DNA of 64,000 bases from Alphaproteobacteria bacterium HGW-Alphaproteobacteria-4 (GTDB lineage: Bacteria > Pseudomonadota > Alphaproteobacteria > Rhodobacterales > Rhodobacteraceae): the NCBI GenBank assembly GCA_002842855.1, contig PHEE01000013.1:75718-139717 (forward strand), read 5' to 3'. Both the position numbers and the translations under genes were made by a program. The notes below the pieces were generated by a model. It made no database searches. It saw nothing but the letters and a program-made list of their open reading frames with translations, and was not told the origin of the DNA. This document shows positions 42,911 to 52,466 of the stretch, piece after piece (the stretch's first letter is position 1; every line of letters starts with the position of its first letter).

Positions 42911-43135
42911 ATGGCCTATACCGCCGCACATGCACCGCAAATGATCGTTGCCCCGAAACGGCTTCGCAGCTTTTTCACCGGGTTGGGGCATGCCATCATC
43001 GCCTATACCGAGCGCAATTCGCGGGTGGCCGAGGTTGAGCGGCTGAACGCCCTGTCGGACGACGAGCTTGCCAAGCTGGGCATCGCCCGCGACCGCATCG
43101 TTCACCACGTCTTTTCCGACCGCTTCTGGTACTGA
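42911..43135 (+). CDS. DUF1127 small protein
   Basis: 74 residues. Basic, with the C-terminal DUF1127 motif SDDELAKLGIARDRIVHHVF. Members in Rhodobacter and Agrobacterium are stress-induced RNA-binding or phosphate/carbon-regulation proteins; in R. sphaeroides one such gene (ccaF1) precedes the CcsR sRNA array. AAGGAG ribosome-binding site 8 nt before the ATG. A 9-bp GC hairpin follows the stop, without the C-rich loops of CcsR RNAs. Confidence 0.88.
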   Translation: MAYTAAHAPQMIVAPKRLRSFFTGLGHAIIAYTERNSRVAEVERLNALSDDELAKLGIARDRIVHHVFSDRFWY

Positions 43136-43601: not shown

Positions 43602-44561
43602 TTACAAAGGTCTTTCGGGCGGCAGGGTGATGCCTTTGTCCGCCAGCACGGCCTGCAGTTGCGCCAGCCGGTTGGCAAACCGTGGCGCCCGCAGCCTGCG
43701 TGCCGCGTTACGCGCCACGAGTGCGCTCAGAAATGGCCGCCCTGCGGCATCTGTCCGTGCCAGTAACAGCCGCATGTAGCGCAGCGAATTGCGCCGCTGC
43801 CGGTAAAGCCGCCAGAACGCGGCTGCGCTGAAGCGGCCCTCGCACGCGGCCACCAGCATTGGCTCGACCAGCCCGAGCATGGCGATCATTGCGGGCAAGT
43901 TGGCGCCAAGCGTCGGGCAGGGCAGGGCGGTGACCCACGGGCGGCGAAACAACGCCGCATGCATCGCATCCATCGCTTCAAGCGGGTCATAGACCACGAA
44001 AGCCTCGCCTGCGCCTTCCAGCATATCGGGGGCAAAACCGTAGCGATCGCTGAATGAGGTGCGGCGCATCTGCACGAAGCGATGGTCCCACCCGGCAATC
44101 CGGGGGTCGAGTGTCGCTTGCGGCGCCAACGCAATAACCGTGGCACCGGGGGCAGCCACCGCATAGGCCGATGCCGCGTATCCTGCCATGCCCGCACCAA
44201 AAAACACAACGCGGTCAAAGTCTTCGAAGAAGGCATCATCCACCAGTCGGTCAAAATACCCATAAACCGCACGGTCACGAAACCAGGTATCGCCATCTGC
44301 GATGACCGTCAGGCTTGACCAGCCTCGCGCCAATGCAATGCCATAGCCCAACGGCAACTGGTCAGGCTGGCGCGCCCGGATATCGGCAACGGTTTCAAAA
44401 GTGACCAGCAATACCGGCCCCTGATCGGAAAAGAACACACTGTGCCGTTTGCCAAGGTTCTCAAAGTAGCCTGCTTCTTCGCCCACATCTTCCAACCGCG
44501 TTGCCCATTCGGCAGGGCTGAGGGCCGCAAGGTCGGTGCTGCTGTCGGTTTCGGCTTGCAT
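43602..44561 (-). CDS. Free-standing alpha/beta-hydrolase-like protein with degenerate active site
   Basis: 319 residues, no signal peptide. It aligns with the C-terminal domain of the 733-residue glycosyltransferase at 48220-50421: DTWFRDRAVYGYFDRL versus WTWYRDPWVAAEFDRL, and FGAGMAGYAASAYA versus YGASMGGYAACAFS. At the nucleophile elbow the Ser is replaced (Gly124, GAGMA in place of GASMG), and the segment with the likely catalytic His (GHRLG in the paralogue) reads GANLP (219-223); the acid-like YDP (192) is kept. It is therefore probably non-catalytic, perhaps a binding or regulatory partner. Downstream of the glycosyltransferase genes on the same strand. Confidence 0.7.
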   Translation of the reverse strand: MQAETDSSTDLAALSPAEWATRLEDVGEEAGYFENLGKRHSVFFSDQGPVLLVTFETVADIRARQPDQLPLGYGIALARGWSSLTVIADGDTWFRDRAVYGYFDRLVDDAFFEDFDRVVFFGAGMAGYAASAYAVAAPGATVIALAPQATLDPRIAGWDHRFVQMRRTSFSDRYGFAPDMLEGAGEAFVVYDPLEAMDAMHAALFRRPWVTALPCPTLGANLPAMIAMLGLVEPMLVAACEGRFSAAAFWRLYRQRRNSLRYMRLLLARTDAAGRPFLSALVARNAARRLRAPRFANRLAQLQAVLADKGITLPPERPL

Positions 44562-48219: not shown

Positions 48220-50421
48220 ATGGGGCGCGTGCGCGAGGTTGGAACGCTGTGGATCGGCGGGCGGCTCAGCTGGATGGAGCAGCTTTGCCTGAAGTCTTTC
48301 GTTGATGCCGGCCAGCGCATCACGCTGTTTTCCTATGAAGACATTCCCAACGTGCCGGCAGGGGTCATCCGCCGCGACGGGCGCGAGGTGCTCGATACCG
48401 CCGATTTCATCAAATACGAAAAGAAAGACAGCTTCGCGCTCTTTGCCGATCTCTTCCGCATCCACATGATCGCGCAAAACCCCGGCCTGATCTGGGTGGA
48501 TACCGATGTCTATTGCCACCGCCCGATGGAGTATGACAGCGACTATGTGATGGGGTTCGAGTTGCCGGGCGAAGCCCGCGTGAACAACGCGGTTCTGGGC
48601 CTGCCCGCAGACAGCGCGATTCTGGCCGACATTCTCGATTTCACGGCCGACCGCCATGCGATTCCCGAATTCGTGAAACCCAATCTGCGCGCCCAATACC
48701 TTGCGGCGCGCGCGGCGGGCACACCCGTGCATGTATCCCAGCAACCATGGGGCGTATGGGGGCCGCTGATGATCACCCATTTCGTCGAAAAGCATGGCCT
48801 CAAGGATCAGGCGCAGCCGCTCGACGCGTTTTACCCGGTGATCTTTCCCGACCGCACCAAGTTCCTCAAAGATCGCAAGGTCGCCGAAAAACTCATTACC
48901 CCGCGCACCACCGCGCTGCACCTCTGGGCCTCGAACAAACGGGAACTGGGCTTGCGGTACGGTGGCATCCCGCCGGTGGGCAGCTATCTGGCGATGTTGC
49001 TCGAGCGGCACGGAATTCGCCCGGATCTGGCGCCAATCACCGGCCGCGGCAAGCGGGTGTTCGATGCAGGCCTGATCGATGCCGTCGATCTGCCCGAGGT
49101 GGCGACATTTGCCGACATCGGCGGCACCGCGCAAAGCCTCGCCCTCGCCGCCCACGCCAAATGGGATTGCGATATTGCACTGGTGGACCTTACCCATAAG
49201 GGAGAATGGCCCGAAAAGCCCTCGAACTGGGTCGCCCCCTACCGCGCCTTTCTGGCCGATAATGGCGTTGCCGCCGATCGGGTCAGGCTTGTTTCAAAAG
49301 CCCGCGACCTGCGCCCCACTGACCTTGTCGCCAACCTCTCTGGCTTTGGAGATGTCAACAAGATCAAGCATCTGACACCTGTTCTTGATGCATGCCTCCA
49401 CGCTGAAAGCCGGATGATTCTCGACATCCGCAAAGGCTCTGGCAGCTATCCGTTCCTCAAGGAGCGCGGAACTGTCGAGAAACTTTCGAGCCGCGACGAT
49501 GGCGGCGTTGAAATCACGCGGGCGCGTTTCACCCCGCTACCCCCCGCCGCAACCGTGACCGACCCGGCCTGGGCCGAAATCGCCCGCGAACTTGCCGGGC
49601 AACAGGGGTTCTATCGCGACAACGGCGGCCATTCCTTCCTCTACATCCCGCGCGGGCGCACACTCGTGGTCACCTTCGACAACCTCGACATCGCGATGAA
49701 CAAGCGCGAGGAGCGCCGCCCCTGGGGCTTTCACTTCATCGAAAAGCAGGGCTGGTCGATGCTGGGTGTAATGGCGGGTGGCTGGACATGGTATCGCGAC
49801 CCCTGGGTTGCCGCCGAGTTCGACCGACTCGCTTCGACCGGGTTCTTTGCGCAATTCGAGCGGGTGGTGTTCTATGGCGCCTCGATGGGCGGCTACGCGG
49901 CCTGCGCCTTTTCCGCTGCCTGCCCGGGCGCCGATGTCGTGGCGATCAGCCCGCAATCGACCCTGTCGCGCGCGCTGGTGCCGTGGGAAACCCGTTACAA
50001 GGTCGCCTGGGACCGCGACTGGTCCGGCCCTTACGGCGACGCCGCCGAAGCCTCGAAATCGGCGCGCCGGGTCTCGATCCTTTATGACCCCTACGAGCCG
50101 CTTGATGCCGGTCACGCCGCCCGCTTTGCCGCCCCCAACGCGGTCAAGCTGCGCGCGCCGCTGCTTGGCCACCGGCTCGGCTCGTCGTTGCACCAGATGG
50201 GCATTCTCAACCCGATCATCCTCGCGGCGCTCGATGGCAGCCTTACCGAGGCGGCTTTCTACCAGCGCCTGCGGGCGCGGCGCGATTTTGCGCGCTATCA
50301 GCGCGAGCTTTTCAAGCGCGCGATTGATGCGGGCCACCCGGCACTGGCCCGTCGCCTTGGGCATTGGGTGCTGGCGCGTGGCGACAATCGCTTCATCCGG
50401 CAGGGCATGGCCGCGCTATAG
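48220..50421 (+). CDS. Three-domain protein: DxD glycosyltransferase, Rossmann-like domain, alpha/beta-hydrolase-like domain
   Basis: 733 residues, no signal peptide. (1) Residues 1-270: Gly_transf_sug-type transferase with LWIGGRLSWMEQLCLKSF and DxD at 94-96 (IWVDTDVYCHRP). (2) About 280-440: Rossmann-like segment, FADIGGTAQSLALAAHAKWD (297-316) and LVANLSGFGDVNKIKHL, similar in layout to class I methyltransferases but without a secure motif I. (3) About 450-733: alpha/beta-hydrolase-like, nucleophile elbow GASMGG with Ser555, acid candidate in LYDPYEP, His candidate in LLGHRLGSS. It may glycosylate and then modify (for example acylate or deacylate) a surface glycan; this is inference. Followed at once by a dispersed element. 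Confidence 0.8.
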   Translation: MGRVREVGTLWIGGRLSWMEQLCLKSFVDAGQRITLFSYEDIPNVPAGVIRRDGREVLDTADFIKYEKKDSFALFADLFRIHMIAQNPGLIWVDTDVYCHRPMEYDSDYVMGFELPGEARVNNAVLGLPADSAILADILDFTADRHAIPEFVKPNLRAQYLAARAAGTPVHVSQQPWGVWGPLMITHFVEKHGLKDQAQPLDAFYPVIFPDRTKFLKDRKVAEKLITPRTTALHLWASNKRELGLRYGGIPPVGSYLAMLLERHGIRPDLAPITGRGKRVFDAGLIDAVDLPEVATFADIGGTAQSLALAAHAKWDCDIALVDLTHKGEWPEKPSNWVAPYRAFLADNGVAADRVRLVSKARDLRPTDLVANLSGFGDVNKIKHLTPVLDACLHAESRMILDIRKGSGSYPFLKERGTVEKLSSRDDGGVEITRARFTPLPPAATVTDPAWAEIARELAGQQGFYRDNGGHSFLYIPRGRTLVVTFDNLDIAMNKREERRPWGFHFIEKQGWSMLGVMAGGWTWYRDPWVAAEFDRLASTGFFAQFERVVFYGASMGGYAACAFSAACPGADVVAISPQSTLSRALVPWETRYKVAWDRDWSGPYGDAAEASKSARRVSILYDPYEPLDAGHAARFAAPNAVKLRAPLLGHRLGSSLHQMGILNPIILAALDGSLTEAAFYQRLRARRDFARYQRELFKRAIDAGHPALARRLGHWVLARGDNRFIRQGMAAL

Positions 50422-50456: not shown

Positions 50457-51488
50457 TTAGGTCTTGCCAAGCCAGCGCCCGATCAGCGGCGCCGAAAAGA
50501 TGACAAGGAATATCCGCGTCAGATGATGCGTCACGACAAAGGCCACATCGGCGCCCGAAACGATTGCAATCACCACCATTTCCGCCTGTCCGCCCGGCAG
50601 GAACGACAGGATGACATCCAGCGCCGGGGCGGGCGACAAAAGATGCGCAAGCTCGATGAACGCCGTCGAGATGACCGCCAGCAGCGCCGAAAACCCCAAG
50701 CCCGCGCCCACGAACAGCCGCAGCTCGCGCCCGGTAATTCCCGCGTATTTTGACCCTACCGCGATACCGATGAAAAACTGCGCCGCCCAGATCACCTCGG
50801 CCGGCGGGCGCGTGTGTATGAACCCGGCAAGGCTGAGCGCAGCCGTCAGGATCAGCGGTCCAAGGATCGAGGCCCCAAAAAGGCCGATCCGCTCGCCGAC
50901 CTTCCAACCAGCAACCGCCGCGATCAGCATCAGCGCCAGTTCCAGCGGCGGCAGGCTTGCCAATGGCGCCCCCGGTGGGCGCGAAAGGTCGATGCCCCAA
51001 AACAGCGTCATCAGAAACGGCAGTGCGGTGACAATGGCAAGCACGCGCGTTGCGTGCACAAGGCTCATCGCGCGCACATCGCCCCCGGCCTCCTGACCAA
51101 AGATCAGCATGTCCTGCAGGCCGCCCGGCATTGCCGAATAAAACGCGGTCGGGTGGTCAAACCCCATCACGCGGCGGAAAAACGGATAGCCCACCGCGCC
51201 GATCACCAGCACGAACAGCGGAACCAGTGCCAGCGTGGCGCCATAACGCGGCAGCGCGCCAACAAGGTCAGGCGTGACCGAGGCACCGATCGCAGCCCCC
51301 AGAAAGGTGCGCATCAAGGTGCCGAACACCCCCATGTCACGCAGTGGCGCGCCGCCGAGCGCAAATGCAAGGCACCCCGCCATTGGCCCCAGCAATAGCG
51401 GCAGCGGCAGCCCGAGCAGCAGAAAGACCGCGCCCCCGATACCCGCCGCAACCAGCGTCAGCGCCCGCTGACCAATCCGTTTTTGCAT
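50457..51488 (-). CDS. AbrB-family membrane transporter/regulator-like protein
   Basis: 343 residues, about ten membrane helices in two repeats (LLLGPMAGCLAFALGG; FDHPTAFYSAMPGGLQDMLI; later DVILSFLPGGQAEMVVIAIV). This is the AbrB/ammonia monooxygenase-like family of unproven substrate; it is unrelated to the AbrB transcription factor. I take the ATG at 51488. An FNR-type dyad lies 62-75 nt upstream of it and could regulate this gene as well as the divergent candidate sRNA. Confidence 0.85.
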   Translation of the reverse strand: MQKRIGQRALTLVAAGIGGAVFLLLGLPLPLLLGPMAGCLAFALGGAPLRDMGVFGTLMRTFLGAAIGASVTPDLVGALPRYGATLALVPLFVLVIGAVGYPFFRRVMGFDHPTAFYSAMPGGLQDMLIFGQEAGGDVRAMSLVHATRVLAIVTALPFLMTLFWGIDLSRPPGAPLASLPPLELALMLIAAVAGWKVGERIGLFGASILGPLILTAALSLAGFIHTRPPAEVIWAAQFFIGIAVGSKYAGITGRELRLFVGAGLGFSALLAVISTAFIELAHLLSPAPALDVILSFLPGGQAEMVVIAIVSGADVAFVVTHHLTRIFLVIFSAPLIGRWLGKT

Positions 51489-51549
51489 GTTGCGGCCCGA
51501 CCCCTGCTCTCGATCCTGCCATTTTGTCGCAGCCTTTGCTGACACCAAG

Positions 51550-51563
51550 TTGACCCAAGTCAA
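51550..51563. promoter_or_regulatory. FNR/FnrL-type box
   Basis: TTGACCCAAGTCAA: a perfect TTGAC-N4-GTCAA dyad in the form used by FnrL in Rhodobacter (TTGAT/C-N4-G/ATCAA). On the + strand a centre at -41.5 puts the -10 at 51586-51591, which reads TATCAG. On the minus strand CAAAAT (51521-51526) is near the matching position for the AbrB gene. So it may serve either or both directions. Confidence 0.6.
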
Positions 51564-51597
51564 AGATTTTCGCCGCGCCGCCGCGTATCAGCGTTGC

Positions 51598-51724
51598 AAC
51601 AGGTTCCGATCTCCCTGATGCGGCCCTCCCGCCGCGCGGAATCTGAAAAAGGGGTAGCGGCGTTCTCCCTCGCCTGGCCCCGGAAATGCGCTGCGGGCCT
51701 CCCTCCCGCAGCGCTTTTATTTTT
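51598..51724 (+). ncRNA. Candidate FNR-controlled sRNA with CUCCC loop motifs
   Basis: Predicted transcript of about 127 nt with no credible reading frame. Hairpin 1: AGGUUCCG (51601-51608) pairs with CGGAAUCU (51637-51644), with an inner stem GCGGC/GCCGC (51620-51624, 51631-51635) holding loop CCUCCC. Hairpin 2: GGGG...GGCG / CGCC...CCCC (51651-51681), loop UUCUCCCU. Hairpin 3: terminator stem, loop CCUCCCU. A fourth CUCCC is in the open side of hairpin 1 (51611). Three loops with the same anti-Shine-Dalgarno-like motif strongly recall the CcsR and suhB/'cuckoo' sRNAs of Alphaproteobacteria. Start site inferred from the FNR box and TATCAG. It converges with, but does not overlap, the end of infC. 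Confidence 0.62.
51688..51724 (+). terminator. Perfect intrinsic terminator of the candidate sRNA
   Basis: GCGCTGCGGG / CCCGCAGCGC, a 10-bp perfect stem with a 7-nt loop, followed by TTTTATTTTT. No protein gene on the + strand ends anywhere upstream of it, which implies an unannotated transcript. Confidence 0.9.
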
Positions 51725-51747
51725 GCCGCCGCGGTGCATCGCGCAAA

Positions 51748-51773
51748 GAAAAACCCTCCCGCAAGCGGAAGGG
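51748..51773 (-). terminator. Intrinsic terminator of infC
   Basis: On the minus strand CCCTTCCGC and GCGGGAGGG pair (one G-T), followed by TTTTT. It sits 29-54 nt after the infC stop. Confidence 0.8.
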
Positions 51774-51801
51774 CTGATCGTCTGCTACGGCTCCAGCGGT
51801 G

Positions 51802-52341
51802 TTATTTCGGCCCGATCATCATGACCATCTGACGGCCCTCAAGCCGCGGCATCGATTCGACCTTGCCGGCTTCACCCACATCGGCGGCGACGCGGTTCAA
51901 AAGCTCCAGCCCAAGTTGCTGGTGCGCCATCTCCCGGCCGCGAAAGCGCAAGGTGACCTTCACCTTGTCGCCCTCGTCCAGAAACTTCATCACCGAGCGC
52001 ATCTTGACCTCGTAATCATGCGTATCGGTGCCTGGGCGGAACTTGATTTCCTTGATCTCGATGATGTGCTGCTTGCGCCGCGCCTCGGCCTCGCGCTTTT
52101 GCTGTTCGAACTTGAACTTGCCAAAGTCCATGATCTTGCAGACCGGCGGCACCGCCGTGGGCGATATTTCGACCAGATCGAGCCCGGCCTCATCGGCCAT
52201 TGCCATTGCCCGCGCCGGGGTGACCACCCCCACATTTTCACCATCGGCGCCGATCAGGCGTATTTCCGGGGCGCGGATGCGGTCATTGATACGGGGGCCG
52301 GTGTCGCGCTGCGGCGGGGCATTGTGGGGTCTGCGGGCTAT
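51802..52341 (-). CDS. infC: Translation initiation factor IF-3, probable ATA start
   Basis: 179 residues. IF3-N domain ([20 protein letters not shown], linker) and IF3-C domain ([34 protein letters not shown]). IF-3 keeps the 30S subunit free and checks start codons. No ATG, GTG or TTG fits: the first in-frame ATG is about 45 codons in, after conserved sequence, and no start lies just upstream. ATA at 52339-52341 has AAAAGGA 8 nt before it and yields [13 protein letters not shown], the normal IF-3 N-terminus. A rare start is the known basis of IF-3 autoregulation (AUU in E. coli). Confidence 0.9.
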
Positions 52342-52466
52342 GGTCGAGTTCCTTTTGTGGTGGACGGAAACTGGTTTTGTGGCGCGCAAAATAGACGCGC
52401 GCGCGCGCATCTTCAACCACATTCGCAAGTCGAGCGCCAAACGCTTTGCCGCACCGCAGCAAAACC

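Follow-up and report, generated by a model that had tools for sequence, protein, structure and literature searches.

FnrS of E. coli is an anaerobic sRNA that is activated by FNR (PMC4263372). In R. sphaeroides, RSs0019 and RSs2461 have been named as sRNA targets of FnrL (PMC4263372), so that FnrL-controlled sRNAs are already known as a kind. PcrZ, with a length of 136 nt and a position at 2,565,820 on chromosome 1 of R. sphaeroides (PMC6238624), is regulated by oxygen and depends on both PrrA and FnrL (PMC6238624, PMC8139620). Other described RNAs carry anti-Shine–Dalgarno (aSD) motifs: the cuckoo-related RNAs of Sinorhizobium have the aSD motif CCUCCUCCC, and RS0680a has two aSD stem-loops (PMC3927594). 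CcsR is co-transcribed with a DUF1127 gene (the CIN1 locus) from an RpoHI/RpoHII promoter (PMC10253847).

We describe here a predicted sRNA encoded in a 64,000-nucleotide stretch of DNA, referred to below as the window. The sequence comparisons strongly support its being an FNR-box-driven, stand-alone, terminator-ended structured RNA with CUCCC loops. The layout of FnrS is found at this locus, with an FNR-type box placed for activation, a stand-alone RNA and a terminator; as with FnrS, activation by FNR is predicted and repression of targets without oxygen is proposed. The RNA is unlike FnrS in its class II FnrL box, its two identical UCUCCC loop cores, its predicted target ctaD and its lack of any Rfam match, and the two structures probably differ as well. 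With CcsR1–4 and the cuckoo RNAs of R. sphaeroides and the alphaproteobacteria it shares several hairpins with CUCCC-containing loops, but it has no DUF1127 neighbour, is preceded by an FNR box, is single and non-tandem and has the loops GAUCUCCCUGA and UUCUCCCU. It is similar in length to PcrZ, itself a low-oxygen sRNA dependent on PrrA and FnrL, but differs from it in locus, promoter and sequence.

The portions of the literature available to us held no description of this RNA or of a ctaD-acting sRNA in the Rhodobacter group. An RNA-seq catalogue of R. capsulatus sRNAs was reportedly compiled by Grull et al. in 2017, and the R. capsulatus transcript may already be listed in it without a function. 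What is new here is the combination of a predicted FNR-activated sRNA with anti-SD loops, together with an unusually specific target hypothesis. If the proposal is true, the RNA would be a conserved FNR-dependent regulator of the Rhodobacter group, including the model organism Rhodobacter capsulatus, and would provide a specific post-transcriptional route for turning off the aa3 oxidase at low oxygen. The two-loop, two-site design would be easily tested through compensatory mutation.

Locus and promoter

The features of the locus are listed below, with coordinates in the window and the strand in parentheses.

48220–50421 (+): gene for a 733-aa protein without Pfam match, a conserved neighbour on the upstream side
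50457–51488 (−): AbrB-family membrane protein gene, divergent neighbour (PF05145 on ORF 50457–51563; start 51488 by eye)
51525–51531 (+): TGTCGCA, invariant element 17–18 bp upstream of the FNR box (18 in the window), in 32/32 aligned sequences
51550–51563 (+): FNR/FnrL box TTGACCCAAGTCAA (from the sequence)
51586–51591 (+): TATCAG, −10-like hexamer (from the sequence), at −12 to −7 with the box centre at −41.5
51598–51724 (+): predicted sRNA, about 127 nt from its putative start to the end of the T-tract (fold, homologues, covariation)
51600–51645 (+): stem I, enclosing loop 1 and a variable inner hairpin; 51600–51606 pairs with 51639–51645
51608–51618 (+): loop-1 motif GATCTCCCTGA (GAUCUCCCUGA), core TCTCCC invariant in the alignment of 32
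51620–51635 (+): inner hairpin, loop CCUCCC in the genus of the window, sequence not conserved elsewhere (alignment A5)
51659–51674 (+): hairpin 2, GGCG-UUCUCCCU-CGCC, loop 51663–51670, core TCTCCC invariant (alignment)
51688–51724 (+): intrinsic terminator, loop CCUCCCU, T-tract 51715–51724 (sequence, alignment)
51752–51775 (−): terminator-like site of the convergent infC (sequence scan)
51805–52344 (−): infC, translation initiation factor IF-3, convergent neighbour (PF00707, IF3_C; PF05198, IF3_N)

The FNR box has palindromic arms of 5 + 5 bases around four non-palindromic central bases and is centred at 51556.5. Its exact sequence occurs once in the window, in which matches with up to three mismatches number eight against 2.6 expected. 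With the box centre set to −41.5 the RNA would start at 51598, a start site that we infer from FNR class II geometry. The −10-like hexamer is conserved loosely across the aligned sequences (TATC/TAGA and others). The promoter was missed by a σ70 consensus scan, which is no argument against an activator-dependent promoter. The seven columns of TGTCGCA are invariant in 32/32 sequences at a position that was not selected by the scan pattern described below, and we suspect that this element may be a RegA/PrrA half-site. A degenerate GCG inverted repeat has been proposed for RegA/PrrA, for which a strong consensus was not found (PMC4263372). FnrL is encoded in the genome from which the window derives, as judged by an NCBIfam equivalog match of 451 bits against a cut-off of 300 and by four N-terminal cysteines in the arrangement CxxCx7CxxC. 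The R. capsulatus form of the box, TTGACCTATGTCAA, is absent from Table 1 of a ChIP-seq study of FnrL in that species (PMC4634722).

A prior reading of this DNA, made from the sequence alone and here termed the sequence-only reading, had proposed the FNR-type box with TATCAG at −12 to −7 for a centre at −41.5, and both are found at those positions. It had also placed the RNA between infC and a membrane transporter, in agreement with the IF3 domains on one side and the AbrB-family domain on the other, and away from any DUF1127 gene. A candidate for the latter, a DUF1127-like ORF identified by eye at 42911–43135 (no Pfam or NCBIfam match at 0.001), is indeed about 8.5 kb from the sRNA; it is not followed by CUCCC hairpins, unlike CcaF1 loci. 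Another ORF of the window, at 43602–44561, looks by eye like one that lies close to the sRNA in L082 and L091.

Eight loci (the window, L056, L061, L064, L066, L074, L082 and L087) have a clear call for a downstream gene, infC or another, and in each it runs on the strand opposite to the RNA, which therefore cannot be its leader; the remaining rows of the synteny comparison are noisy because ORFs were called mechanically. The end of the 733-aa gene is recognizable by eye upstream of the RNA in 14/32 loci from several genera, and the AbrB gene stands beside the RNA in the window and in L086. The neighbours differ in Frigidibacter and some distant relatives.

Structure of the RNA

RNAfold analysis of 51597–51740 gave a fold of −63.8 kcal/mol containing the hairpins, with z = −2.6 and one of 200 shuffles equally stable. 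The consensus structure was derived with RNAalifold from alignment A5, which has 32 rows (31 close homologues and the window), and comprises 23 pairs that hold in 99.5% of cells. Compensatory changes on both sides are present in nine of the 23 pairs (44 cells), and none of 500 shuffles reached any of five measures. When the partners were slid by 1–3 columns pairing fell to 39.5–50.8%, a comparison that favours the structure since it was derived from the same alignment.

Stem I (7 pairs, 6 with both-side changes) is paired in 98.6% of cells and hairpin 2 (4 pairs, 2 with both-side changes) in 99.2%. The ten pairs of the terminator are kept in 100% of cells of A5, and its loop motif belonged to the scan pattern. 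The terminator stem (51688–51714) has nine G–C pairs among its ten and a 7-nt loop and is followed by TTTTATTTTT, as the sequence-only reading had described it; CUCCCUCCC lies in and beside the terminator loop. Two separate TCTCCC cores, one in loop 1 (GATCTCCCTGA; columns T18–C23 of A5) and one in hairpin 2 (TTCTCCCT), are invariant in 32/32 sequences, and no search pattern demanded them. The inner hairpin varies in sequence and length among homologues.

These results modify the hairpin set of the sequence-only reading. The CUCCC-loop hairpins that it proposed are present, but its choice of the three important loops has to be amended. The CUCCC that it called open is loop 1, which has an invariant core and is closed by three pairs in the single-sequence fold, and the inner loop CCUCCC (51625–51630) that it treated as a key loop is replaced by GCAA or other loops in many homologues. 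Judged from the alignment, the conserved loops are loop 1, the predicted UUCUCCCU hairpin loop and the terminator loop. Conservation of loops and stems in related genomes had been set beforehand as a test of the RNA, and this test was passed, with 31 close homologues and covarying stems.

The same reading had called for an Rfam comparison beside the folding. No Rfam family matched at its gathering score in the window or in 17 related sources, and membership of any family, ar14 included, was rejected for this reason. FnrS is absent from the nine weak Rfam hits of the RNA. The best hits to alphaproteobacterial sRNAs, ar14 (RF02344, 20.5 bits) and ar7 (RF02342, 18.0 bits), span nearly the whole RNA with scores that are far below the gathering scores of 58.8 and 60 and no better than that of an evidently spurious hit to the A repeat of XIST (20.6 bits). 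Within the scope of these comparisons, the lack of any Rfam match at threshold and of an adjoining DUF1127 gene supports the claim that the element is undescribed and differs from CcsR.

Distribution

When 41 genomes were searched at the DNA level, the element was found in the genus of the window, and a second genus gave a partial match. The RNA model R1, built from five sequences from this search with the RNA included and the FNR box left out, gave matches at E ≤ 0.01 in 20 of the 295 family genomes searched. Nine of these matches were strong (at least 68 bits), and an FNR box is present at the matching distance in all nine. A scan pattern in which a gap separates the FNR box from the terminator loop was run over the genome collection and gave 54 loci, of which 31 have R1 scores of at least 68 bits, 13 were judged by eye to be distant and ten to be chance hits (L052, L062, L067, L075, L077, L088, L089, L092, L101 and L103). 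The FNR box is present in 32/32 aligned sequences, for most of which the pattern demanded it; since the terminator loop was demanded as well, both features say little on conservation in the 31 loci. Model R2, built from the 31 homologues and the window, gave matches at E ≤ 0.05 in 60 of the 394 family genomes searched, ten of them above 89 bits; many of the weaker matches resemble chance terminators.

Sources of the homologues include Rhodobacter capsulatus (two strains), R. viridis, R. aestuarii, R. maris, seven Thioclava genomes, Phaeovulum veldkampii, P. vinaykumarii, Sinirhodobacter, Sedimentimonas, Defluviimonas, Frigidibacter and Pseudothioclava. In R. capsulatus DSM 1710 the locus is at about 140,510–140,643 of NZ_QKZO01000002.1. 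A search of plasmids found no copy of the RNA. A photosynthesis-specific role was considered and is unlikely because Thioclava, Frigidibacter and Defluviimonas are not known to be phototrophs.

Inspection by eye also showed an FNR-type box ahead of several CUCCC-type hairpins in Actibacterium, Rhodovulum and other Rhodobacterales (L076, L096, L102, L117, L116 and L063). These are similar in layout and hard to align with the RNA of the window, and anti-SD RNAs of low oxygen may thus form a wider group. The sRNA models cross-hit two CcsR-like arrays of hairpins with CUCCC loops, in G224 (L039/L121) and in G277 (L047/L126); the L039 array lies directly behind a DUF1127-like frame.

The ctaD leader as a candidate target

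Complements of loop 1 before start codons were found at 35 places in 12 genomes with the RNA (sRNA+), against one for a reversed-pattern control; among the 30 of these places inspected as loci, one is the start of ctaD in G018. The ctaD gene encodes subunit I of the aa3 oxidase and was sought in 22, 20 and 30 genomes. The sRNA+ set has 32 handles for 31 genomes (G357 and G431 both stand for one contig of P. veldkampii), with a ctaD match in 22 of the 32 and 21 usable leaders. The set without the RNA (sRNA−) has 40 genomes, with a ctaD match in 38 and 35 usable leaders; its status was assigned by R2 searches whose strict filters can lose weak matches, 20 genomes being shown unmatched, G069 searched alone and 19 absent among the matches listed. 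Four leaders were dropped: that of G003 (L193), where the gene is incomplete at the end of a contig, those of G012 (L190) and G016 (L186), where the match starts within the gene, and that of G058 (L250), for which the start was not found.

The hexamer GGGAGA, the exact complement of TCTCCC, is present upstream of the Shine–Dalgarno (SD) region in 21/21 sRNA+ leaders and 4/35 sRNA− leaders (Fisher p = 9e-12, a value that overstates independence since the sRNA+ genomes form nearly one clade in the CoxI tree). Two or more copies are found in 18/21 against 1/35 leaders, a copy inside the SD region in 17/21 against 6/35, and the SD sequence GGGAGATC, to which loop 1 is complementary, in 13/21 against 0/35. 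In the leaders from which the idea was formed the upstream copy is present in 9/9 sRNA+ and 3/8 sRNA− genomes, and in those fetched later in 12/12 and 1/27, respectively. Among all 4096 hexamers GGGAGA alone is found in every sRNA+ leader between −90 and −21, the next best being found in 13. The upstream copy lies at −32 to −39, with a second copy at −11 in 15/21. Background leaders from two sRNA+ genomes, taken from mechanical ORF calls of which some are surely not genes, have an upstream GGGAGA in 1/434, two copies in 0/434 and an SD copy in 11/434; the corresponding counts in a smaller sample are 0/75, 0/75 and 3/75. The general suggestion of the sequence-only reading that the loops are anti-SD loops can be sharpened to ctaD as a specific, conserved candidate target.

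In a plain count the upstream GGGAGA is flanked by 3–9 complementary pairs in all 21 rows (at least four in 17 rows and only three in four), and these putative stems differ between genera with the loop kept. In the window's own genome the ctaD leader (L175) has GGTT-CGGGAGA-AACC at −38 and GGGAGATC at −11, so that 7 bp could form with the UUCUCCC in hairpin 2 and 8 bp with the GAUCUCCC in loop 1. In two genomes the pairing energy of loop 1 to ctaD ranks 2/232 and 2/204, that of loop 2 ranks 68/232 and 26/204, and their sum ranks 9/232 and 2/204. Full-length duplex energies do not single out ctaD (ranks 7/232 and 30/204).

The CoxI tree includes 20 of the sRNA+ leader genomes and G042; G132 (L192) was left out. 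Its 21 sRNA+ rows lie in one clade that includes a single sRNA− genome, G041, and require two changes. G041 has no R2 match and no GGGAGA in its ctaD leader (L238), which on the sequences is a correlated loss of the RNA and the predicted site. G042, in which the RNA is divergent (29 bits with R1, 39 bits with R2), has kept both GGGAGA sites. Among the 11 genomes with distant FNR-box RNAs and a readable ctaD leader none has the upstream GGGAGA, and three (G122, G434 and G237) have it in the SD.

At the thresholds applied, CoxI was not matched in nine sRNA+ genomes, which comprise five Rhodobacter, two Phaeovulum and two MAGs, so ctaD is not the sole purpose of the RNA and other targets must exist. 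Counts of GGGAGATC-N-ATG are no higher in sRNA+ than in sRNA− genomes among the matches listed, and no conserved target emerged convincingly from 20 stretches around candidate starts with this motif in R. capsulatus and Phaeovulum; these stretches include, by eye, accC-like and cysK-like starts and a 223-codon gene with the motif in the end of the preceding gene. SDs of the CAGGGAGAT type were noted before a solute-binding-protein-like gene in four genomes of the window's genus (L153, L152, L155 and L154), a small gene in two Phaeovulum (L158 and L156) and a transporter-like gene in G018 (L319:11908). These genes are possible extra targets.

Proposed mechanism and alternative explanations

A conserved structured RNA, a fixed promoter anatomy, an FnrL in the window's own genome and conserved complementary sites are observed. 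From these we infer transcription, control by FnrL and oxygen, pairing and, as the outcome, repression. In our view it is probable that the RNA is an FnrL-activated, FnrS-like sRNA that blocks ctaD translation by multi-loop pairing and so shuts down the ctaD oxidase at low oxygen. FnrL bound at −41.5, perhaps with RegA/PrrA at TGTCGCA, would activate transcription at low oxygen of a trans-acting RNA of about 127 nt from its own promoter, and the intrinsic terminator would end the transcript. Two loops of the RNA would each present UCUCCC, and CUCCCUCCC would be exposed within the terminator loop and next to it. Loop 1 (GAUCUCCC) would pair with the ctaD Shine–Dalgarno GGGAGAUC, and loop 2 (UUCUCCC) would kiss the GGGAGA of a leader hairpin loop some 27 nt upstream of that site. 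Both pairings would block ribosome binding, so that synthesis of the aa3-type high-oxygen terminal oxidase would be off when oxygen is scarce. The more particular reading, that two UCUCCC loops and two GGGAGA sites about 27 nt apart form a multivalent kissing-loop oxygen switch that co-evolves with the ctaD leader and was lost jointly in G041, is tentative and in our judgement falls a little short of an even chance.

The fact that GGGAGA doubles as an ordinary Shine–Dalgarno sequence counts against the proposed mechanism. The best-surviving alternative, which we nevertheless think unlikely, is a general anti-SD sRNA of the cuckoo/CcsR/ar14 type that would bind many GGGAG-type SDs weakly and for which ctaD would not be privileged. 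Such a role would fit the retention of the RNA where the ctaD search gave no match, the several CUCCC-type hairpins of the distant FNR-box RNAs, which lack the ctaD signature, and the cross-hit of R1 to the CcsR-like locus behind a DUF1127-like frame (L039), but would leave unexplained a second, non-SD GGGAGA in 21/21 usable ctaD leaders against 1/434 background leaders.

Somewhat less probable again is that the RNA is real and GGGAGA in the ctaD leader acts in cis for something else, such as RNase E or a stand-by site of the ribosome, and is shared by the clade only by coincidence. The nearly single-clade distribution in the CoxI tree would fit such an element, and several sRNA− ctaD leaders show, by eye, a hairpin of other sequence. 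GGGAGA is, however, the exact complement of the invariant loop cores of the sRNA, and the one genome nested in the clade without an RNA match, G041, is also without GGGAGA.

A small protein gene or a chance fold is very improbable: a 76-codon frame from TTG overlaps the region, but M-started, stop-closed frames of at least 25 codons are found inside the RNA in 0/32 sequences on its own strand and 1/32 on the opposite strand, and the covariation of the stems (9/23 pairs) argues against chance. A coding gene was rejected, as the 32 sequences have no protein frame in common.

Comparison with R. sphaeroides

PcrZ is likewise an oxygen-regulated sRNA dependent on PrrA and FnrL, and the RNA could for this reason be taken for its orthologue, an identity to which we give almost no credence. 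The comparison was made in G069, which is Cereibacter sphaeroides (99% over 3,120 bp to a plasmid segment) and has a contig, C4, of 3,188,524 bp; PcrZ was located by its published position, and the G069 coordinates may be shifted slightly. This position corresponds approximately to L143:2821–2956 on C4, with CATAAT just upstream, where the sequence is different and has neither an FNR box at −41.5 nor a CUCCC hairpin series. The best R2 score in G069 is 14.8 bits (E = 1.47). Identity with PcrZ was rejected, as locus, promoter and sequence all differ. An FNR-type box is found at L143:3007–3020, ahead of a small frame and a putative cytochrome b561 frame that we take for RSP_0820. For RSP_0820 a PrrA peak is given at 2565800–2566199, and the CrpK/FnrL section has another peak for it at 2565800–2566399 (PMC4263372).

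The R2 search of G069 did not find the RNA in R. sphaeroides. The coxI operon of this species (RSP_1877-6, chromosome 1, 477000) is entered with '-' among the binding sites of the CrpK/FnrL section (PMC4263372), and the two together may represent a case of regulatory rewiring.
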